Shown here piece by piece: positions 981-13,200 of a stretch of DNA of 64,000 bases. Under the pieces are notes generated by a model, which searched no databases, had not been told where the DNA came from, and worked only from the letters and a program-made list of their open reading frames with translations. A program made the translations under genes and the position numbers. Origin of the DNA: an uncultured Alphaproteobacteria bacterium (GTDB lineage: Bacteria; Pseudomonadota; Alphaproteobacteria; Rs-D84); NCBI GenBank assembly GCA_944392535.1, contig CALXWY010000001.1:124001-188000 (forward strand), written 5' to 3'. Each line of letters starts with the position of its first letter. Position 1 is the first letter of the stretch.

Positions 981-2618
981 ATGAATGATAAAGAAAAAGA
1001 TGTTTTGAACAAGGATTATGGGGATTTAAAGCCGTCAATTCCGGCTGGGTTGGAAAATGCAGAAAACAAGGATATTGTGGATTACCTGTTTTCAAATGGC
1101 AATCGTTTGTTGACCGCAACCGGGGCAGAGCAAGAATTACCCAAAGATACCCAGGGGCTGGTTGCGTATTTTTCAGGTGGTGAAATTATTGTTTCACGGA
1201 CACATCGCTATGACGGGCGTGTGTTGGCGTTTTTAGATTTATTGACAAAACGCGGTCGCCCAATGCGAATACCGTTTTATTCTGATTTGGGTTTGGTTTC
1301 CAGTATTTACAAGGCATATGAAAGTCGTCTGGGCGGAATTTCGCGTTCACGCCAGGATTATGACAATCAAATGCAAAAAGATTTTGTTGATATAATTGCC
1401 AAGGCGGCCGCACAAAAGGTGTCGGATATTCATATAGAAGTTGCCGATCAAACAACAATATTCTTTCGTATTGATGGCAGTATGCAGCCGGTGTTGGAAT
1501 ATAATGCAGGTTGGGGGGAATCTTTTGTTCGTGCGGCGTTTGCATCGTCTGATATGTCAAATGCAAACTATGCGCAAAATGAATACCAGGCCGCCCAGAA
1601 AGATGGGCGCACACCGTTGCGCGGGACCAAGGATTTATACCTGCCGCGCGGAATTTTAAGTATTCGTATGCAATTTAATCCAATCGCGTTCGGCAGTCGC
1701 TATGTCGTAATGCGATTGTTGTATGACAACCCATCCGAAGGTATAAAAACAGAGCAAGAATTTGGTGAATACGAGCAAAAATTATTAATGCGATTACGTT
1801 CTTTCCCAACTGGATTAGTTATTGTGGCCGGACCAACCAGTTCTGGGAAATCAACAACATTGGTGCGCAATATGTCATTGATGTTAAAAGAGCATCATTA
1901 TGAAATTAATATGATTACAGTGGAAGATCCGGTTGAACAAAAAATATTTGGCGCGCACCAGATGCCGGTTGTTAATACCACAAATGAAGAACAGCGCGAA
2001 GAAAAATATACCGAAGCCTTGGCCGCCGCGTTACGCAGTGACCCAGATACACTGATGGTTGGTGAAATTCGTACGTTGGCCGCCGCGCAATTGACAGTGC
2101 GTGGGGCGTTATCAGGCCATAATGTGTGGACCACACTGCACGCGAATTCGGCAATGGCGGCGTTAACACGTTTGTTGGATTTGGGTATAGAAGCGTTTAA
2201 GTTAAAAGAAGAAACACTGATGCGTGGGTTGATTTCTATGCGCTTGTTCAAACAATTGTGTCCGTATTGTCGGGAAAGACTGATTGACCACCCGGAAAAT
2301 CCAGCCTATCGTCGTGTTATGGATGCGTTTGGGGAATTAGGACTGCGCCAGGTGTATATTCGCGGCGCAGGATGTGAAGAATGCAAGGGAACCGGGACAT
2401 TGGGGCGTATCAAGGCCGGTGAAATTATAATTACAAACAGTGAATTTTTACGCATGGCATTGGCGGGTAATACCGATGGCGCAGTTAAGTACTGGTTGGA
2501 AGAAATGGATGGGCGTACGTTAAAAGAAGCCGCAACGTCATTAATGTTACAGGGGATAATCGGTGTGGATGAATTAGAACGCTGGGTCGGATTGCTGGAT
2601 CGGCCGGGGGTATATTGA
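981..2618 (+). CDS. GspE/PilQ-type secretion (pilus assembly) ATPase
   Basis: A hexameric assembly ATPase of the GspE/PilB/PilQ family, 545 residues, acting on the cytoplasmic face of the inner membrane to power pilus or pseudopilus assembly. The Walker A box GPTSSGKST lies at 284-292. An Asp box (ITVEDPVE), the Walker B region (LMVGEIRT) and the His box (TTLHANSA) follow in order. A zinc-type tetracysteine, CPYC followed by CEEC about 45 residues later, lies near 430-475. The shortened N-terminal domain is closer to plasmid-type PilQ than to PilB. The gene starts 5 bases after pilP-like and ends 1 base before the membrane-protein gene. ATPase identity is secure; the choice of pilus rather than type II secretion comes from the neighbours. 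Confidence 0.9.
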   Translation: MNDKEKDVLNKDYGDLKPSIPAGLENAENKDIVDYLFSNGNRLLTATGAEQELPKDTQGLVAYFSGGEIIVSRTHRYDGRVLAFLDLLTKRGRPMRIPFYSDLGLVSSIYKAYESRLGGISRSRQDYDNQMQKDFVDIIAKAAAQKVSDIHIEVADQTTIFFRIDGSMQPVLEYNAGWGESFVRAAFASSDMSNANYAQNEYQAAQKDGRTPLRGTKDLYLPRGILSIRMQFNPIAFGSRYVVMRLLYDNPSEGIKTEQEFGEYEQKLLMRLRSFPTGLVIVAGPTSSGKSTTLVRNMSLMLKEHHYEINMITVEDPVEQKIFGAHQMPVVNTTNEEQREEKYTEALAAALRSDPDTLMVGEIRTLAAAQLTVRGALSGHNVWTTLHANSAMAALTRLLDLGIEAFKLKEETLMRGLISMRLFKQLCPYCRERLIDHPENPAYRRVMDAFGELGLRQVYIRGAGCEECKGTGTLGRIKAGEIIITNSEFLRMALAGNTDGAVKYWLEEMDGRTLKEAATSLMLQGIIGVDELERWVGLLDRPGVY

Positions 2619-2619
2619 T

Positions 2620-3690
2620 ATGACAAAATTAGATTTACTGTATGCGAAACTGGTTTTCAGATTAAATACAGAAAAACGTATGGCCACCGCACGCAAGTTG
2701 GCGTCGCTGTTACGTAATGATTTTACATTGATGGATGCGTTAAATCGTCTGGAAATGATTGAATCGCATGGCGGAACAAAGCCAGATGAACCATTTGCAA
2801 TTGTTATGCGTGAATGGCAGAAAAACTTGGAACGTGGTATGAGTTTTTCGGATGCAACACGCGGATGGGTGCCACCAGATGAAACATTGTTGGTCACGTC
2901 TGGGAATTTGTCTGATTTGGTTGTCGCGCTGGAAAATGTCAGTCGCGTTGTTGATGGAACCCAACGAATAAAGCGGGCAATGACCAGTGCCATTGCGTAT
3001 CCATTGTTTTTGTTGATATTAACGTTTGGTATAATAATGCTGGTTGGGGTATATTTGGTGCCCCCGTTGGCCGAAATTGCGGGTGATAATATTATATGGC
3101 GCGGAATGGCGGCGTCATTAATATGGATATCTGAATTTTCAATAAAATATTGGCCGGTTGTTTTAGGGATATTTATTGCGCTGGTTGCGATTGTGTGGAT
3201 AAGTTTACCAAACTGGTCGGGTCGGCTGCGCGCGAAATTTGATAAATTGCCCCCGTGGAATGTGTATAAAATTCAAATGTCTGTGGGTTGGTTAATGAGT
3301 TTGTCGGCCATGGTCGCCGCCGGAATTACAATCCCAGATGCAATGCGTATGTTGGCGGACAGTTCAAATAAATATTTACGCAGTATTTTGGATGAAACAC
3401 TGCACTATATTGCAAATGGTGATAATTTGGGTGTGGCGCTGAATAATGCTGGGCGGGGTTTCCCGAATACAGAAATTATTGGGGATTTGGCGATATATGC
3501 CGATATGAATGGTTTTGATGAAAATCTGGGGCGGGTGGCAAACGATTATTTGGAAGAATCTGTGCGTAAAATGGAATCTGTGTCATCGGCGTTGAACAGT
3601 TTTGGAATATTGTTGGTATCGGCGATTATTGCGTGGGTTGTACTGGGGACGTTCCAGATGCAAGATCAGATTACCGCCACACTCAGCTAG
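2620..3690 (+). CDS. GspF/PilR-type inner-membrane platform protein
   Basis: A 356-residue polytopic protein of the T2SSF family, the platform on which the assembly ATPase acts. Three strong hydrophobic stretches (about 125-150, 165-190 and 325-345) separate two cytoplasmic helical domains, the usual GspF plan. The second domain (about 215-320) holds the better-conserved 'MSLSAMVAAGITIPDAMRML' region. It begins one base after the ATPase stop codon, so the two genes are certainly co-translated. It is the last gene of the pilus-like operon: the next 240 bases hold a separate promoter and a structured RNA. No prepilin or prepilin peptidase follows, which is unusual for a complete pilus locus. 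Confidence 0.85.
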   Translation: MTKLDLLYAKLVFRLNTEKRMATARKLASLLRNDFTLMDALNRLEMIESHGGTKPDEPFAIVMREWQKNLERGMSFSDATRGWVPPDETLLVTSGNLSDLVVALENVSRVVDGTQRIKRAMTSAIAYPLFLLILTFGIIMLVGVYLVPPLAEIAGDNIIWRGMAASLIWISEFSIKYWPVVLGIFIALVAIVWISLPNWSGRLRAKFDKLPPWNVYKIQMSVGWLMSLSAMVAAGITIPDAMRMLADSSNKYLRSILDETLHYIANGDNLGVALNNAGRGFPNTEIIGDLAIYADMNGFDENLGRVANDYLEESVRKMESVSSALNSFGILLVSAIIAWVVLGTFQMQDQITATLS

Positions 3691-3709: not shown

Positions 3710-3738
3710 TTGCTTTTTTATGAATATATAGGTATCAT
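3710..3738 (+). promoter_or_regulatory. Sigma70-type promoter of structured RNA copy A
   Basis: TTGCTT (3710-3715), a 17-base spacer and TATCAT (3733-3738) predict a start near 3745, exactly where the first hairpin of RNA copy A begins. Copy B has the same arrangement (TTGATT, 17 bases, TATCAT), and the recA promoter also uses TATCAT. Confidence 0.6.
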
Positions 3739-3744
3739 ATATAT

Positions 3745-3915
3745 GACATTGGTGTATTGCCGATGTTGGGCTTCATCACCCTTCGTATATGCGTCTTGCT
3801 GACGATAAAAGCTCCTGCAATAGGCAGGAGTGCAATGCCATATATTGAAACCATTGCGCTATTTACATATACGAATAGTGATGAAGCTCCTGCCGCCAAA
3901 TTATTGGCGGCTTTT
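3745..3915 (+). ncRNA. Structured RNA family member, copy A (leader or small RNA)
   Basis: A compact, multi-stem RNA shared with 12473-12648. P0 is ACATTGG/CCGATGT (3746-3752 with 3760-3766). P1 is a long closing stem: CTTCATCAC pairs with GTGATGAAG (3771-3779 with 3878-3886), and TTCGTATATG pairs with CATATACGAA (3782-3791 with 3866-3875), with a CC/TA internal loop. Inside lie P2 (CGTC/GACG), P3 (CTCCTGC/GCAGGAG, 3812-3830) and P4 (GCAATG/CATTGC). A terminator-like hairpin GCCGCC/GGCGGC with TTTT ends it (3892-3915). GGCAGGAG (3823-3830) can pair instead with CTCCTGCC (3887-3894), which would break the terminator, so an on/off switch is possible. The Shine-Dalgarno AGGAG of the next gene (3922-3926) can also pair with CTCCT. 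The function is unknown. Confidence 0.75.
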
Positions 3916-3932
3916 GATGATAGGAGTAATGT

Positions 3933-6149
3933 ATGTGTAAATGGCGTGGTATATTTTTTGTGTTGGTTGTTTTGTTGGTTAATATTTCGCAGTATGCGTA
4001 TTGCGCCACCCAGCGCCCCAGTCGTTCGGTGGTAAAGTCTGGGACGACAACGGCCAGAAATGCGGCCAGTACAATAAATGATACTTCGTCACGTGTTGTC
4101 GCGCGCAGTGCCACCACTGCCACGGTGCAAAAGAATGCAAACAGTGGTACGCATGTGGCGACAAGAACAGTTCAAAATCGTGCAAAAACACGCGCGGTGG
4201 TGGCACGTAATACAACAAATACAAACACGGTGGAAAAGACGACTGTATCATCGGTGATTGATGTAATGACCGAACAAAAAAATATGACCGATTTTTGCAA
4301 GGCGCAATATACGGCATGTATGGATAATTTCTGTAATGTTTTGGATGACAACCAGGGGCGTTGCAGTTGCAGTGCGAATTTAAGCAATTATGCCGAGACT
4401 GAGGCAGCGTTAAAAGAAGCCACGGAACGTCTGCAAGACGTTGCGCAACAAATTCAATACATTGGACTGACGGCGGACCAGGTTGAATCACTGTTTACCG
4501 AAACAGCGGCCGAAACAGAATTATCTGGGTCAACGGATAACAGTCAATTCATGAACAGTCTGGAATCCATACGTGACATGATAATAGATGTTGAATCTGG
4601 TCGTGCGCGTTCAAATGCATCCAGTGGATTAAGTTTTGATTTAAGTGGTCTGTTGGACTTTTCTTTGGACAGTTCTGGATTTGATTTAGCGAGTTTGTTT
4701 GGTAATTCTGGTGCTGACACCAGCAGTATCAGCAACCAGCGTGGTGAAGATTTGTATGAAACGGCGGCTGCGCGTTGCAAGGCGTCTGTATTGAACAGTT
4801 GTCAATCCCAGGGTGTTGATATATCAGTGATAACGAATTCGTATGATTTGGAAATAGACAAGGCGTGTATTGCATACGAACGGTCACTGACGGATGCGAA
4901 CGACCAGATGTCTGCGACGGTTCGCAATGCGACATCGTTACTGCAGCGTGCGCGATTAATGGTTGCGGAACAAAAGAATGCGTATGATTTACGAGAATGT
5001 GTGACCGAACTGGATTCATGTATGCAAGACGAATTTGTATGTGGTCGTGATTATGAATACTGTCTGGACCCAACCGGTAAGTATATCGTAAATGGCGATG
5101 TTGTCGTGGTTGTTAACCAAGATACAATGATGACAAAGTTTTGGGGTGCGTCTGAACCCAGTGGTGACCGTAATTTTATTACTGCGCATATGAAAGAAGG
5201 GGTCATAGAATTATTGTTGAACAAAATAGGTGACCCGACCGAAAATACTGGTTTATGTAATGCGGTTCTGAACAGGTGTCAACAACAATGGGAAAACGAA
5301 CAATCTGGTAAATATGATACGCTGAACCAGGTATCTTTGGCATATCTGGAAATGATTGTCCCAAGAATGGCAAAAAAACAGAAAGAAATGATTGCTGATT
5401 TTATGGCAAATTGTAAAGACAGCGTTTATTCGTGTATGAGCAAAACCAGGGTGTTGGGCAATGTTGTTCCGCGTCCGACGCAGTCTGTAATCAGTTTCCT
5501 GGGGCCCAGAATAAACGCATGTCGCACGGTCATAGATTCGTGTACAACAATATTAAACATAAGTACAAAAGAACTGTTGGCAGATTGGATACCGCAGAAT
5601 GTTTGCCGTGAATATGATTTTGATAATGATGTGTGTTCGTTAAGTGCATTGATGGAACAAAATTGCCTTAATGCGGGTAATTTGTGGATTGATGGTGCGT
5701 GTCAAGACAGTACCGCGTATTATACAAAACTGGCAAGCACGTATGAAGAATTGCCCAGTTATTGTTGGCCTGGTGTTCCTGTTGCTGATTGGCCCGGGGA
5801 AGAGGGGCAGTGGTATGATTGTATTGATAGATGTAATGAACTTAGAGACTTGTTGAAAGATGAGCCGAAACCAATTCCGCCATACGAATACGGTTACACC
5901 TGGGGCCCATCCCCTGGGAATCACCCTCAATGCACAGGAATCGGATGGTTGCCAGTAAGTGTAACAGATAATGCAGAGTTCTTTTGTTTTGCAAAAGGAT
6001 GCTTTTTCAATGGTACAACCAGATGTATCAGTGGGTATACCCGGATTTTTGACCCGTGTGGTTTAGGTTTACAAACTGCCGATAATTTTATATGCTGTCC
6101 ACCAGATAAAACAGACGAATGTGTACAGCAATACTGTGCAGATGAATAA
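3933..6149 (+). CDS. Large secreted cysteine-rich protein of unknown function
   Basis: I do not recognise the family. The 738 residues open with a signal peptide (hydrophobic 7-22, cleavage near 24-25), then a basic Ala/Thr/Val linker (about 28-105). A conserved-looking Cys cluster follows (C122, C129, C134, C144, C146), then a long helical region with more paired cysteines, and a Cys/Pro/Gly-rich tail ending CCPPDKTDECVQQYC. The many cysteines suggest a disulfide-bonded envelope or surface protein. The start at 3933 has AGGAG seven bases upstream; structured RNA copy A lies just before it and may control it. It follows the pilus-like operon on the same strand, so it may be exported by or belong to that system. 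The short protein at 30180-30902 has a similar CC-P tail. Confidence 0.7.
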   Translation: MCKWRGIFFVLVVLLVNISQYAYCATQRPSRSVVKSGTTTARNAASTINDTSSRVVARSATTATVQKNANSGTHVATRTVQNRAKTRAVVARNTTNTNTVEKTTVSSVIDVMTEQKNMTDFCKAQYTACMDNFCNVLDDNQGRCSCSANLSNYAETEAALKEATERLQDVAQQIQYIGLTADQVESLFTETAAETELSGSTDNSQFMNSLESIRDMIIDVESGRARSNASSGLSFDLSGLLDFSLDSSGFDLASLFGNSGADTSSISNQRGEDLYETAAARCKASVLNSCQSQGVDISVITNSYDLEIDKACIAYERSLTDANDQMSATVRNATSLLQRARLMVAEQKNAYDLRECVTELDSCMQDEFVCGRDYEYCLDPTGKYIVNGDVVVVVNQDTMMTKFWGASEPSGDRNFITAHMKEGVIELLLNKIGDPTENTGLCNAVLNRCQQQWENEQSGKYDTLNQVSLAYLEMIVPRMAKKQKEMIADFMANCKDSVYSCMSKTRVLGNVVPRPTQSVISFLGPRINACRTVIDSCTTILNISTKELLADWIPQNVCREYDFDNDVCSLSALMEQNCLNAGNLWIDGACQDSTAYYTKLASTYEELPSYCWPGVPVADWPGEEGQWYDCIDRCNELRDLLKDEPKPIPPYEYGYTWGPSPGNHPQCTGIGWLPVSVTDNAEFFCFAKGCFFNGTTRCISGYTRIFDPCGLGLQTADNFICCPPDKTDECVQQYCADE

Positions 6150-11534: not shown

Positions 11535-12452
11535 TCAATCGTTATACAGTCCTGTTTCACGGGCAACGCGCCACCAGTGGTCCGAAAATATCGGGCGACG
11601 GTCCGGCGTATGCCATGGTTTAAGCCAGTTAGAATAATGCATAACAACCAGATTATATTTCAAATCGTCAATTTCATATTCACTGTGCGCGCGGAATATC
11701 CATTTACCCAGCATTGTTTGAAAATTATATTTTAATGGTAAAAATACTATGCGGCCACGCAATGAATAGTTTAATAAATCCTGGTCAGGATTTTTATAGC
11801 GCTTTATTTGTGATATGCGCAGCCATTTGTCATAGATTTTTTCAGTACGAATTCGTTTCAAATTCATAACCAGAAATCCAGAATTTACATAACCGTTCGG
11901 ATAATCGCGTACCGCACCTAATATGTTTTTCCCCATGTCCATGCGATCCAATTCAATCAGGTCATCAAAAAATAGTGTATCTATGTCGGCATAGATTACT
12001 TTATCAACATCTGGTAACAGTTTTGGCAGCCCCAGTCGCCACCAAACTGCTGCGGGCCAATTGCAACGATATGAATTGTCAAAATCATTCAGTGCGGTTA
12101 AAAATATCACGCGTGATTTTGTGCCACGCGTCATTTTTGATACTGTGCGACGATGGGCGGTCGGCACCCCGTCATCAACAACGCAATATATGTCGTAATC
12201 ACACCGATTTTCTGATGCCATAACCAGCGATTTTATGGAAACACATGCCTGTTTATATCCGTTATCATTAAAGCAAAACGCAACCGAAATCCGATTTTCA
12301 TATTTTTTCATCGGTAACCTGGGGCGGGGTGTGGTGGATAATATATTATGAAATCTGATTTTGTCGCGAATTTGCCGACGATTTGTTTTGGTCCACCCGA
12401 ATACAGATGCAACAGTTGCAATTCGTTCACGCTGTTTCCAATTTATACGCAT
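11535..12452 (-). CDS. Glycosyltransferase family 8 (LPS-type galactosyl/glucosyltransferase)
   Basis: A 305-residue nucleotide-sugar glycosyltransferase with the GT8 plan: an N-terminal 'ISVAFCFNDNGYKQACVSI' strand-helix near 54-72, the metal-binding D-x-D in VIYADIDTLFF, and VNSGFLVMNL followed later by the acceptor-site region. GT8 enzymes such as RfaI/RfaJ extend the LPS core, but donor and acceptor cannot be read here. The start at 12452 has AGGGGG about seven bases upstream; an internal Met at residue 48 is a weaker alternative. Structured RNA copy B ends only 20 bases upstream on the same strand, so the gene may be read through from it or controlled by it. Confidence 0.8.
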   Translation of the reverse strand: MRINWKQRERIATVASVFGWTKTNRRQIRDKIRFHNILSTTPRPRLPMKKYENRISVAFCFNDNGYKQACVSIKSLVMASENRCDYDIYCVVDDGVPTAHRRTVSKMTRGTKSRVIFLTALNDFDNSYRCNWPAAVWWRLGLPKLLPDVDKVIYADIDTLFFDDLIELDRMDMGKNILGAVRDYPNGYVNSGFLVMNLKRIRTEKIYDKWLRISQIKRYKNPDQDLLNYSLRGRIVFLPLKYNFQTMLGKWIFRAHSEYEIDDLKYNLVVMHYSNWLKPWHTPDRRPIFSDHWWRVARETGLYND

Positions 12453-12472
12453 ACAGGCCCCCTGAGGTTGAA

Positions 12473-12648
12473 TAAAAAGGCCGTCGTTTTTATAAAGACG
12501 GCAGGAGTTTCAACACTATTGTATGCGTAATAGCGCACAGCTTTCGGTATATAACACTGCACTCCTGCCGTTATAGGGCAGGTGTTTTACGTCCGTGCAG
12601 ACGCGCATACAATGGGTGTTGAATCCCAGTATCAGAACCCCTGATACA
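12473..12648 (-). ncRNA. Structured RNA family member, copy B (leader or small RNA)
   Basis: The minus-strand sibling of the RNA at 3745-3915. P0 is GTATCAG/CTGATAC. P1 pairs TTCAACAC with GTGTTGAA and ATTGTATGCG with CGCATACAAT (plus coordinates 12604-12623 with 12509-12527). P2 is CGTC/GACG, and P3 is CCTGCC/GGCAGG. Loop bases are shared with copy A: TAAAA, GAGTGCA, ATATA, GAAA, TGCGCTATT. A strong terminator GCCGTC/GACGGC plus TTTTT ends it (12474-12502). CGGCAGGAG can pair perfectly over nine bases with CTCCTGCCG, which overlaps the terminator arm, so the fold can switch. Stem bases differ from copy A mostly in compensating pairs. It lies just upstream of the GT8 gene. Confidence 0.75.
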
Positions 12649-12654
12649 ATTCCT

Positions 12655-12683
12655 ATGATAAAATTGTGTGCGAAAAAAATCAA
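12655..12683 (-). promoter_or_regulatory. Sigma70-type promoter of structured RNA copy B
   Basis: On the minus strand TTGATT (12683-12678), 17 bases and TATCAT (12660-12655) predict transcription from about 12648, where hairpin P0 of RNA copy B begins. Spacing and -10 sequence match the promoter of copy A. Confidence 0.6.
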
Positions 12684-12743: not shown

Positions 12744-12820
12744 GGCGGGATAGCTCAGCTGGTTAGAGCAGTGGAATCATAATCCACGTGTCGGGGGTTC
12801 AAGTCCCTCTCCCGCTACCA
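12744..12820 (+). tRNA. tRNA-Met (CAU), elongator type
   Basis: A 77-base tRNA with encoded CCA. The acceptor GGCGGGA/TCCCGCT closes with a G-U pair at 1-72. The D stem is GCTC/GAGC, the anticodon stem GTGGA/TCCAC with loop ATCATAA (anticodon CAU), and the T arm GGGGG-TTCAAGT-CCCTC. The sequence resembles alphaproteobacterial elongator tRNA-Met rather than initiator (which has an unpaired 1-72 and GGG/CCC anticodon stem) or tRNA-Ile2. It is followed at once by a terminator hairpin and the 174-bp tandem repeat. Confidence 0.9.
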
Positions 12821-13200
12821 AAATCAGCCGGCGAATGCCGGCGTTTTATTTTGGTGTATATGGGACGCCGAACCCCCGATAAAGGGGGTTCAATCAAGCA
12901 AATAGGCGTGTGGAACACGCCGGTTGTGCAAACAAATTTGCGCAGATACGTTGTGGCATGATATGCCACAACGAATTCACCGAAGCGCTGGCCAAAATCA
13001 GCCGGCGAATGCCGGCGTTTTATTTTGGTGTATATGGGACGCCGAACCCCCGATAAAGGGGGTTCAATCAAGCAAATAGGCGTGTGGAACACGCCGGTTG
13101 TGCAAACAAATTTGCGCAGATACGTTGTGGCATGATATGCCACAACGAATTCACCGAAGCGCTGGCCAAAATCAGCCGGCGAATGCCGGCGTTTTATTTT
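12820..13200. repeat. Exact 174-bp tandem duplication carrying a five-hairpin array
   Basis: The unit 12820-12993 is repeated without any difference at 12994-13167, and its first 33 bases occur a third time (13168-13200). Each unit holds five hairpins in a row: GCCGGC-GAAT-GCCGGC with GTTTTATTTT (a terminator), AACCCCC/GGGGGTT, GGCGTGT/ACACGCC, TGTGCAAA/TTTGCGCA and CGTTGTGGCAT/ATGCCACAACG (11 perfect pairs). It fills the space between tRNA-Met and the ArsR-like gene. No coding function is credible. It may be an RNA sponge, a nucleoid or replication site, or a recent duplication of a terminator region. The terminators close tRNA-Met transcripts and, as palindromes, also face the end of the ArsR gene. 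Confidence 0.9.
12827..12852 (+). terminator. Terminator of tRNA-Met (first of three copies)
   Basis: GCCGGC-GAAT-GCCGGC is followed by GTTTTATTTT. The same hairpin recurs at 13001-13026 and 13175-13200 through the tandem duplication. Confidence 0.8.

Follow-up and report, generated by a model that had tools for sequence, protein, structure and literature searches.

The stretch of DNA analysed here (the window, 64,000 nucleotides) carries two copies of a structured RNA element on opposite strands. The questions it raises are whether this RNA is a free small RNA or the leader of the gene behind it, whether it belongs to a named family, and by what means it would act. A sequence-only reading had proposed an undescribed two-copy family with its own promoters and a switchable, riboswitch-like terminator, and had left leader and small RNA side by side. 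All of the elements that it listed were recovered in their places in both copies, promoters ending at P0 included, and the switchable-terminator layout was right. The two alternative folds are designated OFF and ON below, after the predicted state of the downstream gene, and elements are given in their 5' to 3' order. The evidence throughout is computational.

The promoter of copy A (plus strand, 3710-3738) was read from the sequence as a -35 box TTGCTT (3710-3715), a 17-nt spacer and a -10 box TATCAT (3733-3738). It is followed by the 5'-terminal hairpin P0 (3745-3767), assigned by folding and covariation, and by hairpin aP1 (TGGG..CCC, 3767-3781), a predicted ON-state element whose loop contains the P1a 5' strand TTCATCAC (3772-3779). 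The P1b 5' strand (3782-3791) and hairpin P2 (CGTC..GACG, 3792-3804) precede strand Z (GCTCCTGCA, 3811-3819), the 5' arm of P3 and OFF partner of X, and strand X itself (GGCAGGAGT, 3823-3831), which can pair with Z (OFF) or with Y (ON). Downstream of X lie hairpin P4 (3832-3857), with the internal motif ATATA..GAAA, and hairpin P5 (CTATT..AATAG, 3859-3878), a predicted ON-state element with the P1b 3' strand (3866-3875) in its loop. With the P1a 3' strand (3878-3885), these sequences form the OFF-state helix P1, in which 3772-3779 pairs with 3878-3885 and 3782-3791 with 3866-3875. Strand Y (GCTCCTGCC, 3886-3894) can pair with X (ON) or serve as the terminator base (OFF), and the intrinsic terminator (GCCGCCAAATTATTGGCGGC plus TTTT) spans 3892-3915, its hairpin 3892-3911. 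The Shine-Dalgarno sequence AGGAG (3922-3926) and the ATG at 3933 begin a gene (3922-6149) for a 738-aa Cys-rich secreted protein that matched no Pfam family. Directly upstream of copy A, at 981-3690, are genes that resemble GspE/PilB and GspF/PilC by sequence only.

Copy B runs on the minus strand from 12683 down to 12472, promoter to terminator. Its promoter (12655-12683) has TTGATT at 12683-12678, 17 nt, and TATCAT at 12660-12655. P0 (12629-12647), aP1 (TGGG..CCCA, 12613-12628, whose loop holds the P1a 5' strand at 12616-12623), the P1b 5' strand (12604-12613), P2 (12590-12603), Z (ACACCTGCC, 12577-12585) and X (12561-12569, GGCAGGAGT as in copy A) are followed by P4 (12535-12560), P5 (CTATT..AATAG, 12516-12533) and the P1 3' strands (12509-12527; P1b 12518-12527, P1a 12509-12516). 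Y (ACTCCTGCC) occupies 12500-12508 and the intrinsic terminator, GCCGTC..GACGGC and a U-run, 12472-12502. The gene behind (11535-12464, Shine-Dalgarno AGGGGG, ATG 12452) encodes a glycosyltransferase of family 8 (PF01501, E = 3.3e-30). Both promoters are sigma-70-like, and the terminators of both copies end a few nucleotides ahead of the next gene's Shine-Dalgarno sequence. A tRNA gene lies near copy B (12744-12817); a direct DNA repeat adjoins this tRNA upstream of copy B, and the minus-strand open reading frame at 12799-13143 consists of two near-identical halves.

BLAST alone found just five related loci beyond the window; weaker BLAST matches of the window copies were mostly chance and were discarded, and copy A gave no BLAST match in phages. 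A first covariance model was built from seven sequences, window copies A and B with the BLAST-found homologues, and matched 142 of the 156 genus genomes searched. The family is far from limited to two copies. The window's own genome, that of a gut bacterium of Ca. Enterousia (order Rs-D84), is 0.95 Mb in size and holds about 20, at least 16 of them at E ≤ 0.01 in a covariance-model search, where E-values from models built here are rough, and 3-4 more divergent. Covariance-model searches of four Enterousia genomes of about 1 Mb each gave 16, 23, 44 and 32 copies, 44 being the highest number in related genomes; many of the genomes surveyed are MAGs, and copy numbers take in some degenerate copies. 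A second model, R2, was built from 117 members, all of the Enterousia group. It matched 185 of 201 genomes of order Rs-D84 and 20 of 289 in a sample of the class; in a phylum-wide control of 200 genomes it matched a single other genome, by a weak match that is plausibly a true relative. Named hosts include Ca. Enterousia intestinigallinarum, and the range takes in gut, rumen and termite Alphaproteobacteria. Enterousia belongs to order Rs-D84 and has a reduced genome (PMC12306168); no work on the leader RNA was found in the literature on Rs-D84 or Enterousia. Three matches in viral contigs are probably host or element DNA. Of 256 leader cores, 27 had a tRNA gene within 400 nt upstream, where random places gave 2.1%, and insertion of the leader beside tRNAs is possible. 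Head-to-tail arrays were also seen, with six copies at L152:2127-3412 (G010:C3) and four at L110:99-885 (G171:C2), spaced by about 200-240 nt; the majority of these copies have their own -10 box, some copies are degenerate, and a gene lies only behind the last copy.

Both window copies fold far more stably than their shuffles (copy A -79.6 kcal/mol, z = -8.5; copy B -67.6 kcal/mol, z = -6.3; 0/200 shuffles each). The compensatory changes in P0 and P1 that had been noticed between the two copies were real and general across the 117 homologues. Over the OFF helices P0, P1a, P1b, P2, P3 and P4, 91.6% of cells were paired; the covariation score was 0.648, where shuffled alignments gave 0.174 (0/500) and slid controls 0.05-0.09. 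P0 pairs covary, with 96% of cells paired; P1a and P1b together reached 98.7%, with double changes at every pair, and P2 93%, with double changes at 4 of 4 pairs. The window copies carry the variant ATATA..GAAA of the P4 motif AAUA..GAAUA. Two or more AAUA occurred in P4 of 78% of genus members and of 94% of the far ones; shuffles reached 8-10%.

A second set of helices covaries as well. The exclusive pairing suggested for GGCAGGAG proved real: X·Y is paired at 9 of 9 positions in 100 of the 117 members and covaries (96% paired; exchanges UA/CG, UA/AU and GC/UA). It matches better than Z·X, and is still 9/9 in the majority of distant relatives despite quite different sequences. Z, X and Y change as a set, with CTCCTGCC, CTCCAACC, CTCCTGAC, CGCCCGAC and CTTCCAGTC among the variants. 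P5 is paired in 91% over members, with one exchange (UA 59, AU 50) paired in 110 of 114, and also covaries in further, distant sets. In aP1, GGG/CCC, GAG/CTC, GGAG/CTCC and GTGG/CCAC exchange among members. Since X·Y, P5 and aP1 were absent from the search model, their covariation was not fitted. P1 and P3 should be incompatible with X·Y and P5, either because they share strand sequence or, in the case of X·Y across P1, because topology prevents it. Covariation thus supports two mutually exclusive folds, and we hold with high confidence that the leader is a two-state RNA as modelled. A constitutive leader, whose structure would protect the mRNA and allow partial read-through with no regulated switching, would accord with P0 at the 5' end and with the very stable OFF structure; yet independent covariation of helices incompatible with P1 and P3 is unexpected unless the second fold is used, and we regard this explanation as very improbable.

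Folding with RNA parameters gave OFF as the minimum-energy fold of the full leader, with a mean cost of 10.8 kcal/mol for forcing X·Y, or 6.7 kcal/mol before the terminator arm is made; the thermodynamic model leaves out cotranscriptional kinetics. In the examples inspected, aP1, P4 and P5 formed unaided once X·Y was forced, and P5 of copy B arose unprompted under the same constraint. These energies give good confidence that OFF is the default state and X·Y the ON state of the model, so that an input would be needed to reach ON. A promoter in front, exclusive folds, a terminator and a same-strand gene behind were all found, and the RNA is very probably a two-state attenuator of transcription that acts in cis from the mRNA's 5' end, on a branch of the sRNA-Xcc1 superfamily described below. 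In some members the terminator overlaps Y by just 2-4 bp, which counts against this reading.

The proposed course of events is as follows. Transcription would begin at P0. By default the long P1 would close off P2, P3 (Z·X) and P4 and leave Y free to build the base of the intrinsic terminator, so that the gene is not transcribed. An input favouring the other fold would let X leave Z and pair with Y over 9 bp; X·Y would open P1, the freed strands would form aP1 and P5, and the terminator would be blocked, turning the gene ON. In some relatives X·Y would instead take one strand of a hairpin that hides the Shine-Dalgarno sequence, with the same outcome. The driver would come from outside the leader, be it a protein, an RNA or a small molecule, and may act on the AAUA/GAAUA loop in P4. 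We infer switching in vivo, its direction and the external driver alike. Competing helices before a terminator would also suit a T-box, or attenuation that depends on a ribosome translating a leader peptide. Leader-peptide attenuation was rejected, as a Shine-Dalgarno sequence and ATG opening a reading frame of at least 5 codons before X occurred in only 5 of 117 members, at different places; the Rfam T-box model did not match the window copies. We give this pair of mechanisms almost no credence.

The position of the RNA favours the attenuator being a leader. Among the 117 members, a -10 box with at least 5 of 6 matches stood at P0 in 82% (15% in shuffles), a U-run of at least 4 at the terminator place in 113, and an ATG 34-62 nt past the core in 99. 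Some relatives, among them members from another family of order Rs-D84, have no terminator, and their Y pairs with the Shine-Dalgarno sequence. This translational version was seen in L313, L320, L327, L333 and L336, with pairing over 7 of 7 positions in L313 and L327 (CCTCCAA/TTGGAGG), so one switching strand appears to serve transcriptional and translational platforms. A stand-alone trans-acting small RNA, with gene proximity incidental, would account for a promoter and terminator of its own and for tandem copies that have no gene directly behind them. Against it, the distance to the ATG leaves scant room for a second promoter, and the translational variants tie Y to the gene. Of the two options left side by side at the outset, the leader is therefore strongly favoured over the free small RNA, which we consider improbable. 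A terminated leader could nevertheless act in trans as a second role.

The suggestion that the downstream genes concern the envelope, drawn from the Cys-rich secreted protein and GT8 transferase of the window, held for most members but not exclusively. Most downstream products are Cys-rich secreted proteins, proteins of the outer membrane, glycosyltransferases or small HTH proteins. On a simple check of the N-terminus, a heuristic for signal peptides, 68 of 103 downstream proteins of the genus looked secreted, against 18 of 58 window open reading frames, and 50 of the 66 secreted downstream proteins were Cys-rich (≥ 4%). Pfam and NCBIfam matches comprised small HTH_3/HTH_31 proteins, Ephrin_rec_like and other Cys-rich repeats, outer-membrane barrels, OmpA, GT8, GT2, trypsin and GmrSD. 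In other alphaproteobacterial families, pilin-like proteins and lipoproteins, judged by the look of their sequences, stand behind the leader. In two genomes the leader precedes a GmrSD-type restriction gene (L096, L230).

One RNA class ahead of many envelope genes recalls c-di-GMP riboswitches. A metabolite riboswitch, binding a small molecule such as a cyclic dinucleotide directly and controlling surface proteins, is one possible form of the two-state attenuator; the conserved P4 motif and the tandem arrangements also suit it. No Rfam c-di-GMP model matched, and the genes behind these RNAs (antirepressors, toxins, surface proteins, GmrSD) are too varied to indicate one pathway, so that direct metabolite binding seems to us rather unlikely, if less so than the other alternatives. 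The four Enterousia genomes with 16-44 leader copies contain no GGDEF protein, which makes c-di-GMP an unlikely input there; with the known classes unmatched in Rfam and hosts lacking GGDEF, a c-di-GMP riboswitch was rejected for the genus.

In a search of the window against Rfam 15 at gathering scores, only tRNAs matched, neither leader copy among them, and relaxed E-values gave nothing convincing for copies A and B. Matches to SgrS, MIR172, Leu_leader and plastid families were sub-threshold, did not recur consistently among members, and were set aside. The window copies fall short of the 53-bit gathering cut-off of RF02221 (sRNA-Xcc1), and by Rfam's own threshold the window RNA is outside that family. 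The label "undescribed" is right only in part, however, since its ON fold is the RF02221 consensus, with a 9-bp outer helix (X·Y) around two hairpins, P4 with AAUA..GAAUA and P5, and then Y. Both features, the outer helix round two hairpins and the P4 motif, are found in the leader family. Bridging members in the same genome scored 35-46 bits against the cut-off of 53, and two far leader homologues gave sub-threshold matches. The RF02221 model matched 58 of 398 Pseudomonadota genomes and four further loci in the window's own genome, three of them also matched by R2; these three share the layout and have a secreted protein downstream. Loci matched by both models (L372-L374, L376 and L377) came from this genome and from G142. 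A sub-threshold RF02221 match in L341, from a 4.7-Mb alphaproteobacterium, is plausibly a full-length leader relative in a large genome.

Conversely, R2 found 9 of 30 true RF02221 loci, its matches ending at Y. All 30 loci have X·Y at 9/9. In 18 of the 30, the loop of an upstream aP1 hairpin contains a full complement of the 8 nt that precede Y (5.2% in a swapped-strand control), and a promoter TTGACA-17-TAnnnT precedes aP1 (mean score 8.1, against 6.1 in shuffles). A gene with a Shine-Dalgarno sequence lies within 75 nt behind 22 of the 30; downstream genes include Bro-N, KilA-N and P22_AR_N antirepressors and SymE. The RNA precedes an annotated 'ant' gene in phage Rac-SA53, a CDS begins 30 nt behind the annotated sRNA-Xcc1 of Vibrio phage VPBES, and integron cassettes of Xanthomonas are reported to carry sRNA-Xcc1 ahead of symE (PMC12444791). 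From the bridging members and the shared 5' half, promoter and gene, we infer that the window RNA is a divergent, greatly expanded alphaproteobacterial branch of the sRNA-Xcc1 superfamily, numbering about 20-45 copies in some genomes.

The expression platform of RF02221 differs, in that a terminator-like hairpin and U-run (CCGACAG, CCGAAAG or CCGTCAG, often with GCC next) lies about 20-80 nt upstream of X, between P1b and X (L342-L371), and not after Y. This hairpin, whose motif the loci share, seems to stand in for P2 and could be what actually attenuates there. Cloning of sRNA-Xcc1 as an 88-nt RNA with RACE-mapped ends (PMC2996969) and its detection in Xylella vesicles (PMC12189769), where copies are tandem and about 381 nt apart, speak for the stand-alone small RNA. 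Against this, the RF02221 promoter and matching 5' half lie some 95 nt ahead of where the annotation begins. sRNA-Xcc1 itself appears to be a two-state leader's 3' half, and the published 88-nt RNA is most likely its X-to-Y part.

At its widest, the reading is of a proteobacteria-wide class of two-state leaders, carried from host to host by phages and integrons and catalogued as a trans-acting sRNA, which senses a signal and has become the main secretome switch of Rs-D84; we put this at about even. If it is true, an RNA that has borne the label of virulence-linked sRNA for 15 years becomes a regulatory leader, and the occurrence of sRNA-Xcc1 ahead of antirepressors and symE in phages and integrons is accounted for. 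It would also give a first view of secreted-protein control in gut Alphaproteobacteria with reduced genomes and large secreted sets. The paired X, Y and Z strands allow simple, direct tests.

Among known systems, c-di-GMP-I riboswitches occur in many copies per genome, act by transcription attenuation and precede surface and envelope genes. The leader would work in the same manner, one class in many copies attenuating envelope genes, but matches them in neither sequence nor structure. Phage antirepressor leaders (IsrK/anrP, C4 RNA of P1) place a structured RNA just upstream of an antirepressor, as RF02221 does. C4 RNA acts by antisense pairing, and IsrK and C4, compared by description, differ from the leader in structure and mechanism. 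In Xylella De Donno an RF02221 match lies beside C4 and isrK (PMC12189769). Relative to RF02221, the window copies add P0, P2 and strand Z, have their terminator after Y, and precede secreted or surface genes in place of antirepressors or SymE. RF02221 has been described as a trans-acting sRNA, whereas the window RNA reads as a leader with two folds.
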